Origin: Candidatus Gastranaerophilus phascolarcticola
GTDB lineage: Bacteria; Cyanobacteriota; Vampirovibrionia; Gastranaerophilales; Gastranaerophilaceae
Length of the DNA: 64,000 bases
Assembly: GCA_001899335.1 (NCBI GenBank)
Contig: MOYE01000008.1
Coordinates: 131,759-195,758, forward strand
Reading direction: 5' to 3'
Shown here: piece after piece, positions 9,662 to 52,969 of the stretch
Layout: each line of letters starts with the position of its first letter
How positions within the stretch are numbered: the first letter of the stretch is position 1
Notes under the pieces: model-generated
What the model saw: only the letters and a program-made list of their open reading frames with translations
Databases searched by the model: none
What the model was told of the DNA's origin: nothing
Position numbers and translations under genes: made by a program

Positions 9662-12055
9662 ATGAAATACCGCTTTTTACAAGAAAACATTACCGAAGAC
9701 AACATAATTGAAAAAGCCGCTGATATTGCGACATCTGTTTTATTAGAAAACAACAGAGGACAGATAAATAAAATTTTGGACTTTTTCAATTCACAAAACT
9801 CATTACTTCTTGCAACCGGTTTTCTTGGCACAGGTAAAACCTCGGTAATAAAGCACTGTCTTGAGGTTCTCAACGAAGACGCTGTTCTTTTGTGGGCAAA
9901 CTGTTACGAATCTACAAACCTTGATGATATTTTTCTTGAATTTTTTGAAGAATTCAAACACCTTGCATCTCACGATATTATTAAAGTTCCGCAGGCTAAG
10001 TTTGAAAATTTCTCTCAACGAATTAACGCATATTTCTACTCAATTTCAAAGCCAATCGTAATAGTTCTCAACTCATATCAGGCTCTTTTACCGGAAAATG
10101 CAAAACTTTTGCTTGATTTTATAGGACATTTAAGCGAATTTGCCAAAATTAAAACAATTATAATTTCGAGGAATTTTAACACTGAAACCCTGCCGAAAAA
10201 CACAAAATTTGAAAAAATAAGTTTTAAAGCCCTCGACAAAGAACTTTTTCAAAAATACATTACAGCAAACAAAATTCGTATCCACGGTCCCGTATTTGAA
10301 GAATTTTATAAGCTCACAAAAGGCTACTATTTTTACACAACTCTAGCCTTAATTATCATTAATACTCAAAGGATTTCGCCGATAGAACTTATGCAAAAAC
10401 ACGCAAACAGTTTTCTATCCCTAAAAGAATTTCTTTTCCGCGAATTTCTTTCAATGGTCGACTCGGTAGGCGGGCACCTAATCCGTTTTTTAACAGTAAT
10501 TCGCTACCCGGTCAACACAAAACTTCTGCAATCTTTAAACCTTTATGACGAAGCCAGACTGCAAATGTTTGCGGCGAACTATTTAATCGAAATTGAGCAC
10601 GGGAACATCTATCTTAAAGACTATTATAAAGACATAACCGAGGGTGAAATCCCGCCAAATGTACTGGTAAAGCTCCACAAAGCCTGCGTAGAGCTATACG
10701 AAATGCAGCTTCCGCGCAAACCCGAAGAACGCGACCTGCTGATCTCCCGCCGAACAATCAGGCAGGAAATCGAATACCACAAACTTTTCATCCCGAAAAA
10801 AGTCGATTTTTCAAACAGCGTAGAAGTTTACAATGCTCAAGCATTAATGGTTAAGCCTGCAGCCACCCCGCCGGAGCCTAAAAAAGTAGAAAAACCGGCA
10901 ACCCAGCCGCCGGCACCGCCTAAAAAAGAACTCAAAGATTTACTATTTGTTTTCGACGAAAAAGAAGAAGACTCTTTGCTCACCGGGATTGCCGATTCAA
11001 TCAATGAATTTATCGCCGAAGCCCAAGCGCAAGATGAGGCAGAATATCAAATGAGCACTGAAGAACTTCTAAAACTCATCAATGACGCCGAAGACGAATA
11101 CAATTACCAGCGAGTCATTTCACTGTGCGAAAAAATTATACTTAAAAATGAAACCACTAAAGACTTACAAGCGTACTCAAACAACAAAATGGCAATGGCA
11201 TACGCAAACCTTTCTGACGCTTATAACGCGCTAAAACACTTTACCGCAGCGAAAGAACTCTATCAAAGCCTTAATGACACTCAAAATCTTTTAGAAAATA
11301 ACTTCTACATCGCAAAAATGAATTATTTAATGTTCAAACGCGATGCAGCAAAACAAGTTTTAGCAAACCAAACCAAAGATATGCCAAAAGCCCTCCAAAT
11401 AAAAAGCAATCTGCTGCTTTTTGACATATACATGGAAGAGGGAGATGAAGACAAAGCATTTGACACCTGCAAAGAAACGATGAAGTTAGTTGACAAAACG
11501 CAAGAACCTGCAACCATTTGCGAACTTCTCTTCAAATGCGGAGTTATTTTAGAAAGCCGCGGCAACAACTATCGCGCAATTGAAGCCTACGAAAAGGCGC
11601 TTAAATTCAATATTGAGAAATTTTTACCACAAATTTATTCAAACCTCACAACCCTTTACGTTGAGACCGAAAACCTTGAACTTGCGAAGAAATACTGTCA
11701 AAAAGCACTTGAAACAGCGACTTCTACGGAAGAAGTTTATACGGCGAGCCTTAAACTTGCCCAGCTTTCACCTGAAAACGCCGACCAATGCTACGAAACT
11801 GCACTAAAATGTGCGACCGAGCTCCAGGATAACTTCTATATAACCTCTGCTCTCACAGCATACGGAGATTACCTATACAGCAAAACCCAAATAATTGAGG
11901 CACTTGAAAAATACTTGAGCGCACATAAATATGCAAAAAATAATTTTATTAAAGAAAATATTCAAACGATTGAAAAACGGATTTTAGACGTAAAATATCG
12001 CGTTACTGAAGAAATATTTAACAAGAAAGCAAAAGAATTTAACTATGAACAATAA
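9662..12055 (+). CDS. STAND-like P-loop NTPase fused to TPR repeats
   Basis: Walker A GFLGTGKTS, Walker-B-like PIVIVLNSYQAL, Pro-rich linker, C-terminal TPR-like repeats; overlaps rsmG by 11 bp. Confidence 0.8.
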   Translation: MKYRFLQENITEDNIIEKAADIATSVLLENNRGQINKILDFFNSQNSLLLATGFLGTGKTSVIKHCLEVLNEDAVLLWANCYESTNLDDIFLEFFEEFKHLASHDIIKVPQAKFENFSQRINAYFYSISKPIVIVLNSYQALLPENAKLLLDFIGHLSEFAKIKTIIISRNFNTETLPKNTKFEKISFKALDKELFQKYITANKIRIHGPVFEEFYKLTKGYYFYTTLALIIINTQRISPIELMQKHANSFLSLKEFLFREFLSMVDSVGGHLIRFLTVIRYPVNTKLLQSLNLYDEARLQMFAANYLIEIEHGNIYLKDYYKDITEGEIPPNVLVKLHKACVELYEMQLPRKPEERDLLISRRTIRQEIEYHKLFIPKKVDFSNSVEVYNAQALMVKPAATPPEPKKVEKPATQPPAPPKKELKDLLFVFDEKEEDSLLTGIADSINEFIAEAQAQDEAEYQMSTEELLKLINDAEDEYNYQRVISLCEKIILKNETTKDLQAYSNNKMAMAYANLSDAYNALKHFTAAKELYQSLNDTQNLLENNFYIAKMNYLMFKRDAAKQVLANQTKDMPKALQIKSNLLLFDIYMEEGDEDKAFDTCKETMKLVDKTQEPATICELLFKCGVILESRGNNYRAIEAYEKALKFNIEKFLPQIYSNLTTLYVETENLELAKKYCQKALETATSTEEVYTASLKLAQLSPENADQCYETALKCATELQDNFYITSALTAYGDYLYSKTQIIEALEKYLSAHKYAKNNFIKENIQTIEKRILDVKYRVTEEIFNKKAKEFNYEQ

Positions 12056-12644
12056 AGAGAATTATGCAAAATATATGCAGCGTTTTTTAGAAGAAAACGC
12101 AAAAATTAACCTAATTTCAAAGAATGAAGAGAAGTTTTTGTGGGAAAAACACGTTTACGACAGCCTTTCTTTGGAACTATTTTTTGAGAAATTCGGGATT
12201 AAACCGGACGGGAAGAGTTTACTTGACATAGGAACCGGCGGCGGCTTTCCGGCACTTCCGCTTGCAATAAAATATCCGGCGTTAAGGGTTACAGCGCTCG
12301 ATAGTATACGAAAGAAACTGGCTGCAATCGACAATATTGCACGTGATACGGGCGTTTCAAACATTGAAACATTTTGCGAACGGGCAGAAAATTTGAACGA
12401 AAAATATGATTTTATAACCTCACGCGCGGTTGCGACACTGGATAAAATAAGCGCTTATGCCCTGCCGTTATTGAAAAAAGGCGGATATTTCACGGCATAT
12501 AAGTCCAAAAAGGTTCAGGAAGAAATTGACGCTGCGAAACCTGTCATTAAGCGTCTTGGCGGCGAAATCGCAGACATAATTGAATATAGACTACCGTTAG
12601 AAGAAATATATGAAAGAAACTTAGTAATAATAACGAAAAAATAA
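12045..12644 (+). CDS. rsmG: 16S rRNA (guanine527-N7)-methyltransferase RsmG
   Basis: INLISKNEEKFLWEKHVYDSL, LLDIGTGGGFPALPLAIKYP, ITSRAVATLDKI motifs. Confidence 0.96.
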   Translation: MNNKENYAKYMQRFLEENAKINLISKNEEKFLWEKHVYDSLSLELFFEKFGIKPDGKSLLDIGTGGGFPALPLAIKYPALRVTALDSIRKKLAAIDNIARDTGVSNIETFCERAENLNEKYDFITSRAVATLDKISAYALPLLKKGGYFTAYKSKKVQEEIDAAKPVIKRLGGEIADIIEYRLPLEEIYERNLVIITKK

Positions 12645-34321: not shown

Positions 34322-35779
34322 ATGGGTATGGCGGCATCTCAAGCTCGTTTCCTGGGCTTGACAGCTAGAATGAATAACATAGAATTTGAAGGACAGCAAA
34401 TTAACCAACAAAGAACTGCCCTTTCAAATAAATCTGCTTCATACTACAGCGATCTTTTAGGTATGGCAGTGCCGACCGCGCCATCTGTTGAAGAATATAC
34501 TCAAACGGTTTATACATTTAACGACGGTGCACTGACGAACCAAATCACCTCTCTTATCGCTGACACCGCAAACCCCGGCAAATATAACGTAAGTTATATT
34601 AAATCCTGGACAGATGATTTTTCAATTGTTTCTGCGTCACCAAGCATTATAACAAATGTCGGCGGCGGGACTTATAACATCGGCGGGACAAAACTTAGAT
34701 TACTCGGTCAAGTAGGCGGCGGCACAACTGTTGGTAACTCAATCAGTATCAACGGCGAAACATACGCGGTTAACAACGATGCGGGCGGATACTATATCAA
34801 CGAAAACGTCAAAACAAAAGGTTTACAAAAATGTACTGCAGCTGAAATTGCAAATCTTGAATACTACAAGTTCAATTCAGACTACACAAGTGCAGAACAA
34901 TTATACAAAGAGGCAGACGGGTCTTACTATACGCTTGATGACGCGGGTAACAAAGTTCCGCAAACTGGCGTAAATGAAAATGATTTAATTATGTGTCTTT
35001 ACGATGACACAGCAACAAACCCTGATGATGCTGTAATTTTAGTTCAAAAAGATACAGACGGCGGCTACAGCAAAGAAGCGGAAATTGTTACACCGACAAA
35101 GAAATATTTAACAACCGCACAGGTAAACAGTATTACAATTTACAATGATGCAGCAAATGACCCTTACTTGAAGACACTTAGTACCGATCAGGTTACAAAG
35201 CTCATTGCAGAAGAACAAGAAATTCTCAAAAAATTAAATAATGATTTAAACAACGGCGACCAAACAGGTCAATGGTTTGTAAGATATGTACAAAACACTT
35301 CCACCGGCGAATACGAAGGCGTTTACTATAAAGCCTCCGAGGTTACCGGCGCGACTTGGGATTCAAAAAATAATTCACAATCATTTATAGGAGCTTACAA
35401 ACTCGGTTCTGCAGACAGAGTCGAAGAAATTAAAGGCATTGGCGGCTGTGAACTTGAACAAGATTCTACAGGACGTTACATTAACATCACGTTTAACGAC
35501 AACGGTTCCAAAAAGACTTATGCGCTTTCTACCAACACTATCACTGACCAAGATGCTTATGAAGATGCCATGAACCAATACGAATACGACAAAGCTCTCT
35601 ACGACCAATCTATTGAAGAAATTAACGCTAAAATCGAAATAATTCAAGCTGAAGACAAAAACCTTGAACTTCGCCTTAAACAACTCGATACCGAACACAA
35701 CGCCATCTCTAACGAAAAAGATGCCGTTTCTAAAGTTATCGAAAAAGCTGTTGAGAACGGTTTCAAAACTTTTGGCTAG
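34322..35779 (+). CDS. Hypothetical protein, lineage-specific, coiled-coil C-terminus
   Basis: 485 aa; MGMAASQARFLGLTARMNNIEFEGQQINQQRTALSNKSASYYSDLL N-terminus; no signal peptide. Confidence 0.75.
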   Translation: MGMAASQARFLGLTARMNNIEFEGQQINQQRTALSNKSASYYSDLLGMAVPTAPSVEEYTQTVYTFNDGALTNQITSLIADTANPGKYNVSYIKSWTDDFSIVSASPSIITNVGGGTYNIGGTKLRLLGQVGGGTTVGNSISINGETYAVNNDAGGYYINENVKTKGLQKCTAAEIANLEYYKFNSDYTSAEQLYKEADGSYYTLDDAGNKVPQTGVNENDLIMCLYDDTATNPDDAVILVQKDTDGGYSKEAEIVTPTKKYLTTAQVNSITIYNDAANDPYLKTLSTDQVTKLIAEEQEILKKLNNDLNNGDQTGQWFVRYVQNTSTGEYEGVYYKASEVTGATWDSKNNSQSFIGAYKLGSADRVEEIKGIGGCELEQDSTGRYINITFNDNGSKKTYALSTNTITDQDAYEDAMNQYEYDKALYDQSIEEINAKIEIIQAEDKNLELRLKQLDTEHNAISNEKDAVSKVIEKAVENGFKTFG

Positions 35780-43139: not shown

Positions 43140-43265
43140 ATAAAAATTCCTTGTTTAACATTATATCAAAAACACCTAAAAAAAATTATTGCGTGGCAAA
43201 TATATGAATTTTTGTAAACATTCTTGATACCTTGCGAACCTTCTAAAATATGTTATAATAATAAA

Positions 43266-43346: not shown

Positions 43347-44825
43347 ATGTTCAAAAACAAGAAAATGCAATACGTTATCAAAACCTGTTCAAGCGAAGAC
43401 ACACAGGCACTTCAAAATTTGCTTAACGAAATGTCTATGAACGGCTGGGAACTTTATACGATTAACGAAGTTGAAGTTGATGAAGGCTATCAATACAATT
43501 GCATTTTTATGATGGAGGCGGAAGATGAAAACTACGCCCAAAATACGGACGAAATAAATATTTCTAATTTCAAAAGCCAAATGGAAAAACTTCTTTCTCC
43601 AAAACTTACTCCGTACGAGGCGTGCCTTGAAATTCAGCAAAAAATCAAGGAAGTAAAGGGCAAAATTGCCAAGGCTAAAAAGGAACTTGAGAACGAGGCA
43701 CCGGCATCTCTTGGCAGAAAGCGGCTTAATGACCGGATTTCGGCGGGATTACGCGAGCTTGAAGAGCTAAAACGCCAGCTTGCAGAAACGACTTCTCCTG
43801 ACGGGATGTACAAAAAACTTCGCGAAGACAAACTTTCAATTTCTTTGAGTGAAGAAATTTTAGGCTATATTGATGCGGAACAAGATATTGATGAAGAGGA
43901 ACTTGTTGCTGAAACGGTCAAACTTCGTCTCAAACTCACGGAAGAACTCGGGTATGTTATCCCGAAAATCATTTTCAAAGACGACGAGACTTTAAGCCCT
44001 TATGAATACGCAATAAAAATTCGCGGTTTAGAAGTCTTTAGGGGAACGGTTTATCCTAACCATCTTATGTTTTTCGTTGATAATCTTTTGACTAACAAAA
44101 AAATTAAAGACGCAATTTATGATATTGACCCGATTACTGAAAAGAAAATCGTTTGGATCGCGAAAGAAAAATGCAAAGATTTTTGGGAAAAAGGTCTTTC
44201 CGGTGCGCAATGCATAACGCGTGCGCTGGAATTTATTGCGGTAAAATTTGTTGATGAAATTCTCGACTACAATGAACTCGATAATTACATTGAAGTTGTT
44301 GACGATAACAATTCTTATCTAATCGAAAACTTAATCCCTGAATACCTAACATTAGCGGATTTAAGATATATTTTAACAAGCCTTATCACCGAAAAAGTTT
44401 CAATAAAAGATATTACGTTTATTTTGGAAAAAATAAATGATTTTGCAAACGACTGCGACAAAACGGATATTTTAAGAAAGCTGCGGCTTTCAATCGGACG
44501 CCAGATTACGAAAAGTTACGTAAATGAAGATGGAATTATTCCTGCACTTGAAATTACGGAGGATTCATTGTTAAATGTTTGTGAAACCGCTGTTGAGGAA
44601 GATGAAGCAGAAGAAATCATCAAAATCGACGCAAAATACGCAGACCAGCTGGCGAAAAAGATTGAAAAACTTATGAAAAAATACGATTGCAGAACGATAA
44701 TTGTTCCGTTGGAATTTAGACACCTGATTTTCAAGATGCTTTCAAGTTATTTCAACGAAGTTTCAGTACTGGCGCGTGAAGAGGTTTCATTCTACGCACC
44801 GATTGAAATCTTTGAGGAACTCTAA
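43347..44825 (+). CDS. Soluble FlhA C-terminal-domain-like (FHIPEP) protein with N-terminal DUF4177-like domain
   Basis: LRLKLTEELGYVIPKIIFKDDETLSPYEYAIKIRGLEVFRGTVYPNHLMFF; LIPEYLTLADLRYILTSLITEKVSIKDITFILEKINDFA; TIIVPLEFRHLIFKMLSSYFNEVSVLAREEV resemble FlhA cytoplasmic domain motifs; no TM region. Confidence 0.75.
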   Translation: MFKNKKMQYVIKTCSSEDTQALQNLLNEMSMNGWELYTINEVEVDEGYQYNCIFMMEAEDENYAQNTDEINISNFKSQMEKLLSPKLTPYEACLEIQQKIKEVKGKIAKAKKELENEAPASLGRKRLNDRISAGLRELEELKRQLAETTSPDGMYKKLREDKLSISLSEEILGYIDAEQDIDEEELVAETVKLRLKLTEELGYVIPKIIFKDDETLSPYEYAIKIRGLEVFRGTVYPNHLMFFVDNLLTNKKIKDAIYDIDPITEKKIVWIAKEKCKDFWEKGLSGAQCITRALEFIAVKFVDEILDYNELDNYIEVVDDNNSYLIENLIPEYLTLADLRYILTSLITEKVSIKDITFILEKINDFANDCDKTDILRKLRLSIGRQITKSYVNEDGIIPALEITEDSLLNVCETAVEEDEAEEIIKIDAKYADQLAKKIEKLMKKYDCRTIIVPLEFRHLIFKMLSSYFNEVSVLAREEVSFYAPIEIFEEL

Positions 44826-44828
44826 TTA

Positions 44829-45347
44829 ATGGCAAACCGTATAGTAATATTTTCAGGCAAACAGTTTTCAGGTAAGGATACACTTGCAAAGATAATGTTG
44901 GAAAAGATGCCGACATTCAGACGTTTCGCAATGGGGGACGTAATAAAAGACACATTCGCGAAACAAAAAGGCTTAACTGTTGCTGAAATTGAAACAAATA
45001 AACCTTTCTACCGTCCGGAACTAATAAAACTCGGTGACTGGGGACGGGCTCAAGATCCTGATTTTTGGTTGAAAAAGATTATCTCCCAAGACGGTGATAT
45101 TTTTGTAACAGACGTTAGAAAGCAGCACGAATACGATGTTTTTAAAGCGGCAGGTGCAAAATCAATCCGCGTAGAATCTCCGCGTGAAATGCGTGCGCAA
45201 CGCGGGCAACTTGTGAACGAAAACGACCTTACCGAAACCGAACTTGATAACGTCAAAGACTGGGATTTTGTCGTTCACAATGATGCCGGTCTTAATGAAC
45301 TCAAAGAAAAAGCGATGCATATTATTCAGGCATTAACACAGAAATAA
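44829..45347 (+). CDS. P-loop nucleoside monophosphate kinase-like protein
   Basis: IVIFSGKQFSGKDTLAKIML, DIFVTDVRKQHEYDVFK. Confidence 0.75.
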   Translation: MANRIVIFSGKQFSGKDTLAKIMLEKMPTFRRFAMGDVIKDTFAKQKGLTVAEIETNKPFYRPELIKLGDWGRAQDPDFWLKKIISQDGDIFVTDVRKQHEYDVFKAAGAKSIRVESPREMRAQRGQLVNENDLTETELDNVKDWDFVVHNDAGLNELKEKAMHIIQALTQK

Positions 45348-48523: not shown

Positions 48524-49476
48524 GCACTGTCAAAGACTGGTTAGAGTGCGTCAGGGCATATTCAATTCCTATAACTGTAATGTCGTGGGCGGTTGTTTTT
48601 GTCTACGGGTTAAAAATGGGCGGTAACGTTTGGCTTGGACTTCTTGCCGGCATCGGCATAGAACTTGCACACCTCGCAACAAACCTTGTTGATGATTATC
48701 TGGATTACAAAATCATTATGCGTGACCAGAATTTCCATAACACCGTTCAAAAGGGTAAATGCAGACTTATTTGTCAAAACATCATAAGCCACAAACAAAT
48801 CGGCATAGCAATAATAATCCTTTGTTCAATAGCGGCACTAATCGGCGTAACGCTGTTTTTTCTAAGCGGTCCGCACGTTTGGTGGCTTATGGCAATAGGC
48901 GCTGCCGCAGTACTTTTTTATCAAAAATGTTCACTCATTGGCTGCAGCGAACTCGCTGTCGGGATTGTATATGGTCCATTGATGTTCGAGGGAACTTATT
49001 ACGTAATGACCGGAAACTTTTCGTGGGAAGTCCTAATCCTTTCACTTGCAAGTGTTATGTTTTCGGAACAATTTCTTTATACCCATACACTTCTTGATTA
49101 CGATGGCGATATGATTTCGCACAAGAAAACCCTCGCTTGCCGCATCGGCGACAAAAATAAAGCCCTTTGGCTTTTGGGCGGATTTTTTACAGTCGGATTT
49201 ATTGCACTTGCGGCACTGGCAATTCTAACCCATAATTGGTTCTATCTGGCGGGGTTTGTGACTTTGCCTTATATAGTTTGGCTTTTCAAAGAATTACGCC
49301 AATTCAACACGGATAAAACCGTCCTGCCGCAAATAAACAAATTAAACTTTCCGCTTGATAACTGGGAACAAGTGGTCAAAGACAACGCAGAAAGTTTCTA
49401 TTTCCGTCTGCTTTTATCGCGCAACATAATGATGTATATGTCAATAATCCTTATTTGCGCTACATTAAAAAATTGA
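48520..49476 (+). CDS. UbiA family prenyltransferase
   Basis: LAHLATNLVDDYLDYK, HTLLDYDGDMISHKKTLACRIGDKNKA. Confidence 0.88.
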   Translation: MSTVKDWLECVRAYSIPITVMSWAVVFVYGLKMGGNVWLGLLAGIGIELAHLATNLVDDYLDYKIIMRDQNFHNTVQKGKCRLICQNIISHKQIGIAIIILCSIAALIGVTLFFLSGPHVWWLMAIGAAAVLFYQKCSLIGCSELAVGIVYGPLMFEGTYYVMTGNFSWEVLILSLASVMFSEQFLYTHTLLDYDGDMISHKKTLACRIGDKNKALWLLGGFFTVGFIALAALAILTHNWFYLAGFVTLPYIVWLFKELRQFNTDKTVLPQINKLNFPLDNWEQVVKDNAESFYFRLLLSRNIMMYMSIILICATLKN

Positions 49477-50250
49477 GCTGTATGACGTCAGATAATCCTG
49501 AATTACGTTAAAAAGCATCGGCAAAATCCAAACCATTATCGCCGCGCCCAAAACAGGTTTAAACAGGAAACTTAATTGGAAAACGTTTACCTGTGGCGCG
49601 GTCTTGGAGATTACACCCAGAATAATATCTTGTCCAAGCGTTGCCAACAGCACAGGTGATGCCAATTGCAGCCCCATATAAAGAACATTTGACGTAATTT
49701 TGACCAAATAATCGAGATTTACAATCTTCTCCAGCGGAATAGAAACCGCGTAAATCGGAAATACCTCCATACTTTTCATAAACGCGTTCATCATCCAATA
49801 AAACCCGCCGATATGAATAAAAATACACAGTGCCAGAAGCGAAAAACATTTCCCCAAAATCGAAACCTGACTTGATGTAGTCGGGTCAAGCACCATTGCG
49901 GAAGATAAACCCATTTGCATATTAATCATATCAGCCCCCGCTTCAATTGCAATAAGTATAACCTGCGCGACATAGCCCAAAAGCCCGCCTACAACAAAGT
50001 TTAAAACAATCGACAACAGTAGCGAATCTTTCAACAGTTCACCAGATGGTTTTGCCACCATTGTAATCACAATAGTTAAAATAAATACAAGACAAAGTTT
50101 TACCATTCCGGGAATTTCTTTTCTGTTCAAAATCGGCGCCCAGCGAGCAAAACCAAGTAAGCGTGAAAATATCAAAATTCCCGCAACCAAACATTTGTCC
50201 AGCTCCGGAAAAATTTTAACTAATTCTGTCAAAAAATCGAACCCGTTCAT
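49465..50250 (-). CDS. fliR: Flagellar/type III export protein FliR
   Basis: FSRLLGFARWAPILNRKEIPGMVKLCLVFILTI; position next to fliQ/fliP. Confidence 0.92.
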   Translation of the reverse strand: MNGFDFLTELVKIFPELDKCLVAGILIFSRLLGFARWAPILNRKEIPGMVKLCLVFILTIVITMVAKPSGELLKDSLLLSIVLNFVVGGLLGYVAQVILIAIEAGADMINMQMGLSSAMVLDPTTSSQVSILGKCFSLLALCIFIHIGGFYWMMNAFMKSMEVFPIYAVSIPLEKIVNLDYLVKITSNVLYMGLQLASPVLLATLGQDIILGVISKTAPQVNVFQLSFLFKPVLGAAIMVWILPMLFNVIQDYLTSYSSIF

Positions 50251-50257
50251 AAGCCGC

Positions 50258-50752
50258 CTATTGACCTCTTATAATTTGATTGGTTTCAATCAAATTAGGA
50301 CGCGGCATAGGAGTTCTGCGTGACGGGTAATATTTCGCCTTTTCGTAATTATCAATATAAGGAACCTTACCCGGATTTTTCATAATCTCGTTTATATCAG
50401 GAACATTTTTGAATTTATCAGCATCCATTTCGCCCTGAAACGGCGTTGTGTACTTGTAATAATCGGATGAAAGCACAAAGCTGTCATTTTTAGGCAGCAC
50501 GTTAAATGCAAGTCCCACGCCCTGAATAAAAAAGTTGCTCAAACTATTCATAAACGCATATCCGCCGATAATAATAACTAAAAATACCCCCAAGATTTTC
50601 GGCGCGGCAGCGATAGTTTGTTCCTGAACCTGTGTAACAGCCTGCAAAATACCGACCACAAGACCAATTCCCGCTGCGACCAAAACGCAAGGCATAGATA
50701 TAGAAAGCATGACCAAAAAGCCTTTTGCTAAATATTCAACCATAAGTTCCAT
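50258..50752 (-). CDS. fliQ: Flagellar export protein FliQ with C-terminal extension
   Basis: LVMLSISMPCVLVAAGIGLVVGILQAVTQVQEQTIAAAPKILGVFLVI; 164 aa versus about 90 aa usual. Confidence 0.93.
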   Translation of the reverse strand: MELMVEYLAKGFLVMLSISMPCVLVAAGIGLVVGILQAVTQVQEQTIAAAPKILGVFLVIIIGGYAFMNSLSNFFIQGVGLAFNVLPKNDSFVLSSDYYKYTTPFQGEMDADKFKNVPDINEIMKNPGKVPYIDNYEKAKYYPSRRTPMPRPNLIETNQIIRGQ

Positions 50753-50770
50753 ATTTCAACCCTCCGTGCT

Positions 50771-51412
50771 CTAATTATAACTTGTTACAAGCCCCTGAAC
50801 AATTAATCCCCAACCGTCAACGGCAATAAATATCAACAGCTTGAACGGCAGCGAAATGATTGTTGGCGACAGCATGAACATCCCCAGTGCCAGCAAAATG
50901 TTTGCAACAACAAGGTCTAACACAATGAAAGGTACAAAAATTATAAACCCGATTTCAAATGCCGTTTTGAGTTCACTCATAATATAAGCCGGTGCGACCT
51001 GCCAAATCGTGATTTCTTCAGGGCTTTTTGGCGGAGTTTTCTGCGAAAGTTCAACAAAAAACGCCAAATCGCTTTCCCTCGTCTGCTTCATCATAAACTC
51101 TTTAAGCGGCTTGGAACCCTCGTTTATCGCCTCAACTATGTTCTGACTCTGTTGATACGGAACAGAGCCCATTTCATACATTTTTTGAAAGGTTGCCCCC
51201 ATTGTATAAAATGTCAAAACCATAGAAAGCCCGATAATTACAATACTTGGCGGAACCTGCTGTGTACCCATTGCGGTTTTCAGCATTGAAAACACAATCG
51301 CAAACCGCAAAAAACTTGTCATACAGCAGAAAACAAACGGAATTAGTGAAAATACCGTCATTACAACAAGTAACTGTAAAACAGGATTTATATCTTTGAT
51401 AACACTATCCAT
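50771..51412 (-). CDS. fliP: Flagellar export protein FliP
   Basis: FLRFAIVFSMLKTAMGTQQVPPSIVIIGLSMVLTFY, LKTAFEIGFIIFVPFIVLDLVVANILLALGMFMLSPTIISLPFKL. Confidence 0.96.
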   Translation of the reverse strand: MDSVIKDINPVLQLLVVMTVFSLIPFVFCCMTSFLRFAIVFSMLKTAMGTQQVPPSIVIIGLSMVLTFYTMGATFQKMYEMGSVPYQQSQNIVEAINEGSKPLKEFMMKQTRESDLAFFVELSQKTPPKSPEEITIWQVAPAYIMSELKTAFEIGFIIFVPFIVLDLVVANILLALGMFMLSPTIISLPFKLLIFIAVDGWGLIVQGLVTSYN

Positions 51413-51800
51413 TTTTTCTCTCTCCGGTACTAATTATATTTCTTAAAATAGCCGTTGCATCTTTTCTAACAATCTCTTCATCCTTGGAGTACAAATTTGC
51501 CATATCAAATTCAATATTTCTGGCATTATTAACCATCGGTCGTTCTTCATCCGCATTTAATTTAGAAAGGAAAGTTGTTCTTTCAGCGTCAGACGCGACC
51601 AAAAACTTTTCACTGCCGGCTCTTACAACATACAATTGTTTACGAACGCCGAGATTAATACAGTCCTCAATTTCTAAGAATTTAGAGGTTGAAATCCGGC
51701 TTTGTGTAACAGAAAACTTTTTATACACAAATAACGCAAGGAAAATTGCGCCAACCATTGCCGTCGTATAAACAGTAAAAGTTAAAAGGTAAGAAGTCAC
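51405..51800 (-). CDS. FliO-like flagellar biosynthesis protein
   Basis: N-terminal TM + LGVRKQLYVVRAGSEKFLVASDAERTTFLSKL; upstream of fliP. Confidence 0.8.
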   Translation of the reverse strand: MTSYLLTFTVYTTAMVGAIFLALFVYKKFSVTQSRISTSKFLEIEDCINLGVRKQLYVVRAGSEKFLVASDAERTTFLSKLNADEERPMVNNARNIEFDMANLYSKDEEIVRKDATAILRNIISTGERKNG

Positions 51801-52969
51801 TAAATATCCTCCTCAAGATCAAAGTCGCTGTAATCAAATTCTTCATCATCACCGCCGCCGGCACTTGCTTCAACACCCGGTACATCAGGCATATCAAGGG
51901 TTTCGCCGACATTTTCCGCTGCCGCCTGCGTACCTGCCTGCTGTGAAACATAGCTTTCTACCGGCGCCTTAGGAGCATGAACCTCCGTAATCTTAACCCC
52001 GTACTTGTCGTTAACAATAACAAGCTCACCTGATGCAATAGGCTTATCCTCAACGGTTAGGGTCACTCTGTTCTGATAAATTGAAGTCAAATCCACAACC
52101 ATACCCGCCTGAATTTTTTTCAATTCGCCAAGCGTAATATCAACAGCATCGAAATTCGCGACCATTTCAACTTCAATACTATCCCAAATATTTATATCTT
52201 TTTCTGACACCTCAGAACCTCCATCATTATCAATAGGTACAACCAAACTCAAGTTAGGTTTCAATAACACATCCGCCTCATAATCACGGAATTTTAATCT
52301 CATTTTATCTGTGCTGCTGGATTCAAAAACGACCATATCCTCAACTTCAAGGTGTTTTAAATCGTGCAGGGTGAAGACGGTTTTTCCGACCTCAAGCGAA
52401 ACCGGAATAGGACTTTTTTCAAACTGATCGACAGGGAAAGTTTCACTAATCGGAATTTGTTCCGGTTCAACCAGGACATCAGGGAGGGTTACGACAAATC
52501 TGCCGGACCTGCCTGTCGAGCGGTCCGTCAGAATAAAGCCCAAGTATACGACATCAAAATTTGTTCTTGTCAATGTTGGCGGGGCTGGTTTCAAAAATCC
52601 CAAAACCGCACGGTACATACAATCATTAAATGTTGTAATAATTTTGGTTTCAAGCTCTGTCAGTTTGCTCAAATCCATTGCCTTGTTGGACTTACCTAAA
52701 ACCTTATCCAAAACAAGCCCGATAGCGGTTTCCGACATTCTGAAAAACAGGTCGTGCTGCTTATCAATTTTGACTTTAGTGACGAAATATGAATCTTTAT
52801 CGGCAAGCGTGTTGACATTTTTGCACACACCGAAAAGGGTAAACGTGAAGTCTTCGGCAAAAAAATCGTCAAAAACCCCCTGTACGACCGGAGGAAATGT
52901 TTTTTGAAACCAGTCGTACTGATAAGATAAATCATGTGAATTTGTTACATTAGCGCTTTGAGTACTCAT
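51800..52969 (-). CDS. FliM/FliN-like switch protein with C-terminal SpoA domain
   Basis: DITLGELKKIQAGMVVDLTSIYQNRVTLTVEDKPIASGELVIVNDKYGVKITEV SpoA-like; operon with fliOPQR. Confidence 0.8.
   Translation of the reverse strand: MSTQSANVTNSHDLSYQYDWFQKTFPPVVQGVFDDFFAEDFTFTLFGVCKNVNTLADKDSYFVTKVKIDKQHDLFFRMSETAIGLVLDKVLGKSNKAMDLSKLTELETKIITTFNDCMYRAVLGFLKPAPPTLTRTNFDVVYLGFILTDRSTGRSGRFVVTLPDVLVEPEQIPISETFPVDQFEKSPIPVSLEVGKTVFTLHDLKHLEVEDMVVFESSSTDKMRLKFRDYEADVLLKPNLSLVVPIDNDGGSEVSEKDINIWDSIEVEMVANFDAVDITLGELKKIQAGMVVDLTSIYQNRVTLTVEDKPIASGELVIVNDKYGVKITEVHAPKAPVESYVSQQAGTQAAAENVGETLDMPDVPGVEASAGGGDDEEFDYSDFDLEEDI

Follow-up and report, generated by a model that had tools for sequence, protein, structure and literature searches.

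A soluble paralogue of the FlhA cytoplasmic domain carrying a DUF4177-like head in the Gastranaerophilales

The cytoplasmic domain of FlhA (FlhA-C) forms the ring beneath the export gate of flagella and injectisomes, where chaperoned cargo is received. The normal partners of FlhA-C and its linker include FliJ and the FliH/FliI ATPase complex. Flagellar chaperones dock on FlhA-C, and FliT-FliD binding needs D456 and L461 of FlhA (PMC5932034). The chaperone dimple of Salmonella FlhA consists of D456, F459 and T490, and FliJ is bound by the FlhA linker and the D4 cleft (PMC8166844). In non-flagellated Chlamydia, flagellar FlhA, FliI and FliF have been studied (PMC2830194). As far as the available portion of that report describes them, flagellar-type export proteins are kept there without a full flagellar gene set, as is the B-type system below; that portion deals with Chlamydia's own FlhA, FliI and FliF, and the Gastranaerophilales add a soluble paralogue beside the export apparatus. 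The partial flagellar gene sets of this order have been described as incomplete or as reduction (PMC4040986, PMC3787301). Di Rienzi et al. counted two flhA genes among 13 flagellum-related genes in their MEL-COG set, the second of which may be the gene described here. A literature search that had most subscription papers beyond its reach gave no account of a soluble FlhA-C paralogue, and no published description of a DUF4177 and FlhA-C fusion was found. The soluble FlhA-C paralogue is referred to below as C, and the two full-length FlhA types of the order as A and B.

The C gene is located at positions 43347-44825 on the forward strand of the window (the whole 64,000-nucleotide stretch of DNA analysed), within a 1.82 Mb, 14-contig genome of Candidatus Gastranaerophilales, gut bacteria belonging to the non-photosynthetic Cyanobacteriota. 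The open reading frame list and an FHIPEP match define an intact frame of 492 amino acids with an ATG start. Residues 142-481 align with positions 312-653 of the 657 in Pfam FHIPEP (PF00771; E 9.8e-47, 160 bits against a cut-off of 29.1), a match that covers the cytoplasmic half alone; the transmembrane half, part of the export channel, is absent. The FlhA model TIGR01398 also matches (8.7e-45, 153 bits, below its equivalog cut-off of 772), and the closest solved relative by sequence is Bacillus subtilis FlhA-C (3mix, 3.5e-21). An AF2 model built from an alignment of 29 orthologues (pLDDT 80) consists of a small β-α-β-β domain, then helices, and a C-terminal body for which the top Foldseek matches are the FlhA-C structures 6ch1, 6ch2 and 3a5i (E ~1e-22, TM ~0.8 on target; 0.81 over 342 columns for 6ch1). 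Pfam, AF2 and Foldseek together place the FlhA cytoplasmic domain at residues 151-481 (43797-44789, forward strand). The SctV cytoplasmic domain of injectisomes (YscV, InvA, CdsV) has the same fold, with 7alw, 7qij and 6wa6 among the Foldseek matches, but is the weaker relative in sequence (NCBIfam SctV 5.2e-26 vs FlhA 8.7e-45). C shares with FlhA the fold, the linker helix and conserved core residues, but is a separate gene that bears a DUF4177-like head and a coil in place of the membrane half and has lost the chaperone cleft. This identity is well supported, and an earlier note's reading of the gene as a detached FlhA-C without the transmembrane half is borne out by the profile and fold matches. 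We conclude that C belongs to the FlhA-C domain family and is not an FlhA export gate.

The same note had proposed a small DUF4177-like N-terminus followed by a coiled coil, and this architecture also holds, with the head assigned less firmly than the FlhA-C body. The head spans residues 1-59 (43347-43523, forward strand), as defined by profile, model and orthologue alignment. PF13783 (DUF4177) matches the heads of 19 of 29 orthologues, at best with 3.2e-4; the window protein itself is not listed at E values up to 1. Modelled alone, the head forms a β-α-β-β fold with pLDDT 88, and L25, L26, N27, M29, W34, Y37, E41, C52, I53 and F54 are invariant among 28 orthologues. A Foldseek search with the head returned nothing below E 0.06, and a PDB sequence search gave no convincing relative. 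The head was found in C only, once per genome, in 23 of the 26 genomes searched. In the AF2 model the coil comprises predicted helices at residues 89-115 and 122-149 (43611-43793, forward strand), the second of which aligns with the linker helix preceding FlhA-C in B-type FlhA. Upstream of the gene is a sigma-70-like promoter match, TTGCGA-16-TATAAT (43232-43259, forward strand); six such matches were seen in the region against 5.8 expected, which is not significant.

The host genome contains two FHIPEP genes, C and a full-length B-type FlhA at positions 79934-81910 of contig C4. A full-length FlhA elsewhere in the genome, which the earlier note had suggested looking for, makes C a paralogue and not a broken gene, and rules out a split of the genome's sole FlhA. 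The B-type flhA sits with fliE, fliF and fliH and with the gene of a 344-residue protein that occupies the fliG position; FliI and FlhB are encoded on contig 1. The 344-residue protein (L064 718-1752, reverse strand) lies between fliF and fliH of the B-type cluster and has no Pfam match. The name FliG, which its position alone would recommend, was not adopted. The fliR, fliQ, fliP and fliO genes and a FliM/N-type gene are in the window at 49465-52969 on the reverse strand and belong to the only export apparatus found in the genome. The earlier description of C as remote from fliOPQR is right in that the two are on opposite strands and in different operons, but the fliR end of the cluster is just 4.6 kb away.

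Flagellin_N had no match in the host genome or its six genus-mates; flagellin is present in 34 of 59 relatives. When the match lists were compared by hand, the A-type FlhA (~870 bits) tracked flagellin, and so did a second FliI with a lower score; the FlhA pairing has exceptions in G009 and G020, both incomplete assemblies. The B-type FlhA (~730 bits) and its FliI occur also in flagellin-less genomes. These genomes, the host included, keep the B-type FlhA, FliI, FlhB, FliE/F/H and FliM/N-O-P-Q-R. Rod-type genes of the B cluster (two of FlgE/F/G type, one flgB-like and one flgC-like) are likewise kept in flagellin-less G001 and G036, and the host genome has three Flg_bb_rod matches. G007 encodes both export systems in separate clusters. 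Two flagellum-type export clusters per genome were observed in G007, L166 and L210/L211; one of the two tracks flagellin across the order and the other does not. In L176, from a deeper lineage of the phylum, a flagellin gene adjoins a B-side FlhA, so a non-flagellar role of B is claimed for the Gastranaerophilales only. As a separate observation, a window gene (34322-35779, forward strand; no Pfam match to its product) and a gene adjoining flhA on L063 (15835-17694, forward strand) encode proteins that start MG(M/L)(A/S)ASQAR(F/L)L and are possible export substrates.

Of 58 genomes sampled from families f1-f7 of the order, 55 have C, each as a single copy and at 36-92% identity, and nearly all orthologues are full length with head and coil. 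The f9 class-mates have full-length FlhA only, without C. In an order-wide search of 286 genomes, a B-type FlhA was the sole FHIPEP match, among the matches listed, in G134, G223 and G229; C is therefore dispensable. In G121, G218 and G238 the sole match among those listed has C-like strength, possibly because of assembly gaps, and each of the remaining genomes has at least two among the matches listed. Comparisons between genus-mates gave pS values of 0.72-0.74, near saturation, and pN of about 0.055, indicating strong purifying selection on C, and the head is the slowest-evolving part in most comparisons. The intact reading frame, the purifying selection and the presence in 55 of 58 genomes rule out a pseudogene or an assembly split. 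A mere relic of a flagellar gene set in decay might be expected in a genome without flagellin and in an order whose partial sets have been read as reduction (PMC4040986, PMC3787301). We disfavor this reading as highly improbable: C has an intact new domain architecture under strong purifying selection and is near-universal in flagellin-positive and flagellin-less members alike.

Among the 108 C loci compared, no neighbor is conserved across families, and a function based on operon context was rejected on this ground. The usual f1 arrangement is bamA-skp-nucleoside phosphorylase-C, and in the host genus the C gene comes after a divergent kinase gene. The nucleotide-kinase-like gene directly 3′ of C (44829-45347, forward strand) adjoins it in this genus only and is not a conserved partner. 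Two f7 genomes have C directly upstream of fliJ-fliK-flgD-flgE, an adjacency to fliJ that is limited to one family and to an apparently A-type operon.

Phylogenetic analysis, performed without SctV sequences, placed C and the class's B-type FlhA in one clade with 100/100 support; the node that makes C sister to the B-type FlhA of the order is moderate (UFBoot 79, aLRT 39). AU tests rejected a grouping of C with A-type FlhA (p 0.007, 0.002), and hence derivation from it, and likewise a common origin with other soluble FlhA-C proteins (p 9e-6). C and B-type FlhA are ~33% identical over the aligned part. These comparisons point firmly to an origin that we regard as well supported: in the Gastranaerophilales ancestor, the cytoplasmic domain and linker helix of a B-type FlhA were evidently copied without the membrane half and joined to the DUF4177-like head.

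Since C occurs in flagellin-less genomes that retain the B-type set, its likely partner is B. We tentatively propose, with somewhat less than even confidence, that C, a stable paralogue of B-type FlhA origin, is an accessory subunit or regulator of the export apparatus that the B type has kept from a flagellum. C would act in the cytosol, modulating docking or export by this apparatus; its FlhA-C body would contact the machine at the FlhA ring or at FliJ and the FliH/FliI ATPase complex, and the DUF4177-like head may add another contact or feed in a signal. The position ahead of fliJ in two f7 genomes favors such a role; the dispensability of C and the lack of export genes next to it in the order at large speak against it. 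An alternative that we consider rather unlikely, close to the repurposed ring suggested in the earlier note, is that C co-assembles with B-type FlhA, or forms a nonamer of its own, and thereby tunes or caps the ring that lies beneath the gate on the cytoplasmic side. Nonameric rings are known for both FlhA-C and SctV-C (PDB 7amy and 7alw, among the Foldseek matches), and C descends from B and shares its linker helix and fold core, but the two are just ~33% identical and G368 of FlhA is replaced by Ser or Asn in C.

How the chaperone-binding surface has changed bears on a further proposal of the earlier note, that C is a chaperone dock. The former cleft corresponds in the alignment to residues 261-294 of C (E. 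coli 456-492; 44127-44228, forward strand). D456 is retained in all 10 aligned C sequences, as D261 in the window protein. In the same 10, F459 is replaced by T, S, N or K, L461 by K, R, Q or E (mostly K or R) and T490 by R, K, N, L or E (usually R or K); the window protein has T264, K266 and R292 at these positions. A-type FlhA retains F459, L461 and T490, with Glu at 456 in this phylum, and the B-type FlhA of the order retains D/E456, Y/F459 and T490 and has lost L461; wrong-frame A rows from G307 and G319 were left out of the comparison. The fold core is intact in C (R391, G399, P403, W465, R579, R655 and E676, E. coli numbering), which has largely retained the core residues that A and B share. 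Invariant residues specific to C are W280, at or near the cleft, and D307 and Y308, near the start of D3. The loss of F459, L461 and T490, which A keeps, contradicts the earlier suggestion and makes docking of chaperones via the classical cleft appear unlikely. A soluble dock, or a decoy as the earlier note had also suggested, would collect chaperones with their substrates in the cytosol and either pass them on or withhold them. Such a protein would fit the docking of flagellar chaperones on FlhA-C (PMC5932034) and the retained D456. We regard it as decidedly unlikely, given the three lost positions, two of them (461 and 490) usually basic, C-specific invariant residues that suggest a rebuilt surface, and flagellin-less genomes that offer no flagellin substrate. 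In the accessory role at the B-type apparatus proposed above, C would use FlhA-type contacts away from the classical cleft.

Further soluble FlhA-C proteins were found in the phylum. In 2 of 18 genomes of the sister class, L081 and L080, an HTH_17 domain (E 1.4e-11 and 4.2e-13) is fused to FlhA-C; the genes are at L081 5318-6556 (reverse strand) and L080 4765-6015 (forward strand), and one of them adjoins fliP-fliR-flhB. Three other sister-class members (L075, L076, L078) carry FlhA-C behind an N-terminus of ~200 residues without a Pfam match, and two (L074, L077) behind a short hydrophobic N-terminus. Within the order, a 593-residue protein on L235 (7042-8823, reverse strand) combines an N-terminus resembling the B-operon protein in the fliG position, a hydrophobic stretch and then FlhA-C. 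Shorter FlhA-C pieces of 212-335 residues, which seem to lack subdomain D2 and the C-terminal part, also occur there, at L236 10037-10684 (reverse strand) and 11804-12520 (forward strand), L237 7424-8062, L238 6567-7424, L239 7482-8120 and L205 5972-6979. The soluble forms included in the phylogeny branch on the B side. FlhA-C has been detached independently several times in the phylum, HTH fusions included.

These varied N-termini, the HTH_17 fusion in the sister lineage and the lack of conserved export-gene neighbors would suit a signaling or regulatory protein freed from secretion, in which FlhA-C is a generic binding module and the head a sensor or oligomerizer. Because C and the B-type apparatus occur together in almost the whole order, we consider such a complete separation unlikely. 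A wider idea, possible but doubtful, is that FlhA-C is a mobile interaction module that, in the non-photosynthetic Cyanobacteriota, has been repeatedly and independently cut from the B-type gate and given varied heads (DUF4177-like, HTH_17, a single N-terminal hydrophobic helix or a segment shared with a B-operon protein). The resulting soluble sensors may report the state of an export machine or control it, and direct regulation of genes would be one of their means.

For C we infer a function tied to the B-type apparatus. A free-standing FlhA-C kept across the order, flagellin-less members included, would show that this domain can be used apart from the channel. With the repeated detachment of FlhA-C, its fusion to an HTH domain included, the idea that such proteins sense the export state can be put to a direct test. 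C is a sign that the Gastranaerophilales conserve a flagellum-derived export apparatus, hitherto read as a degenerate flagellum.
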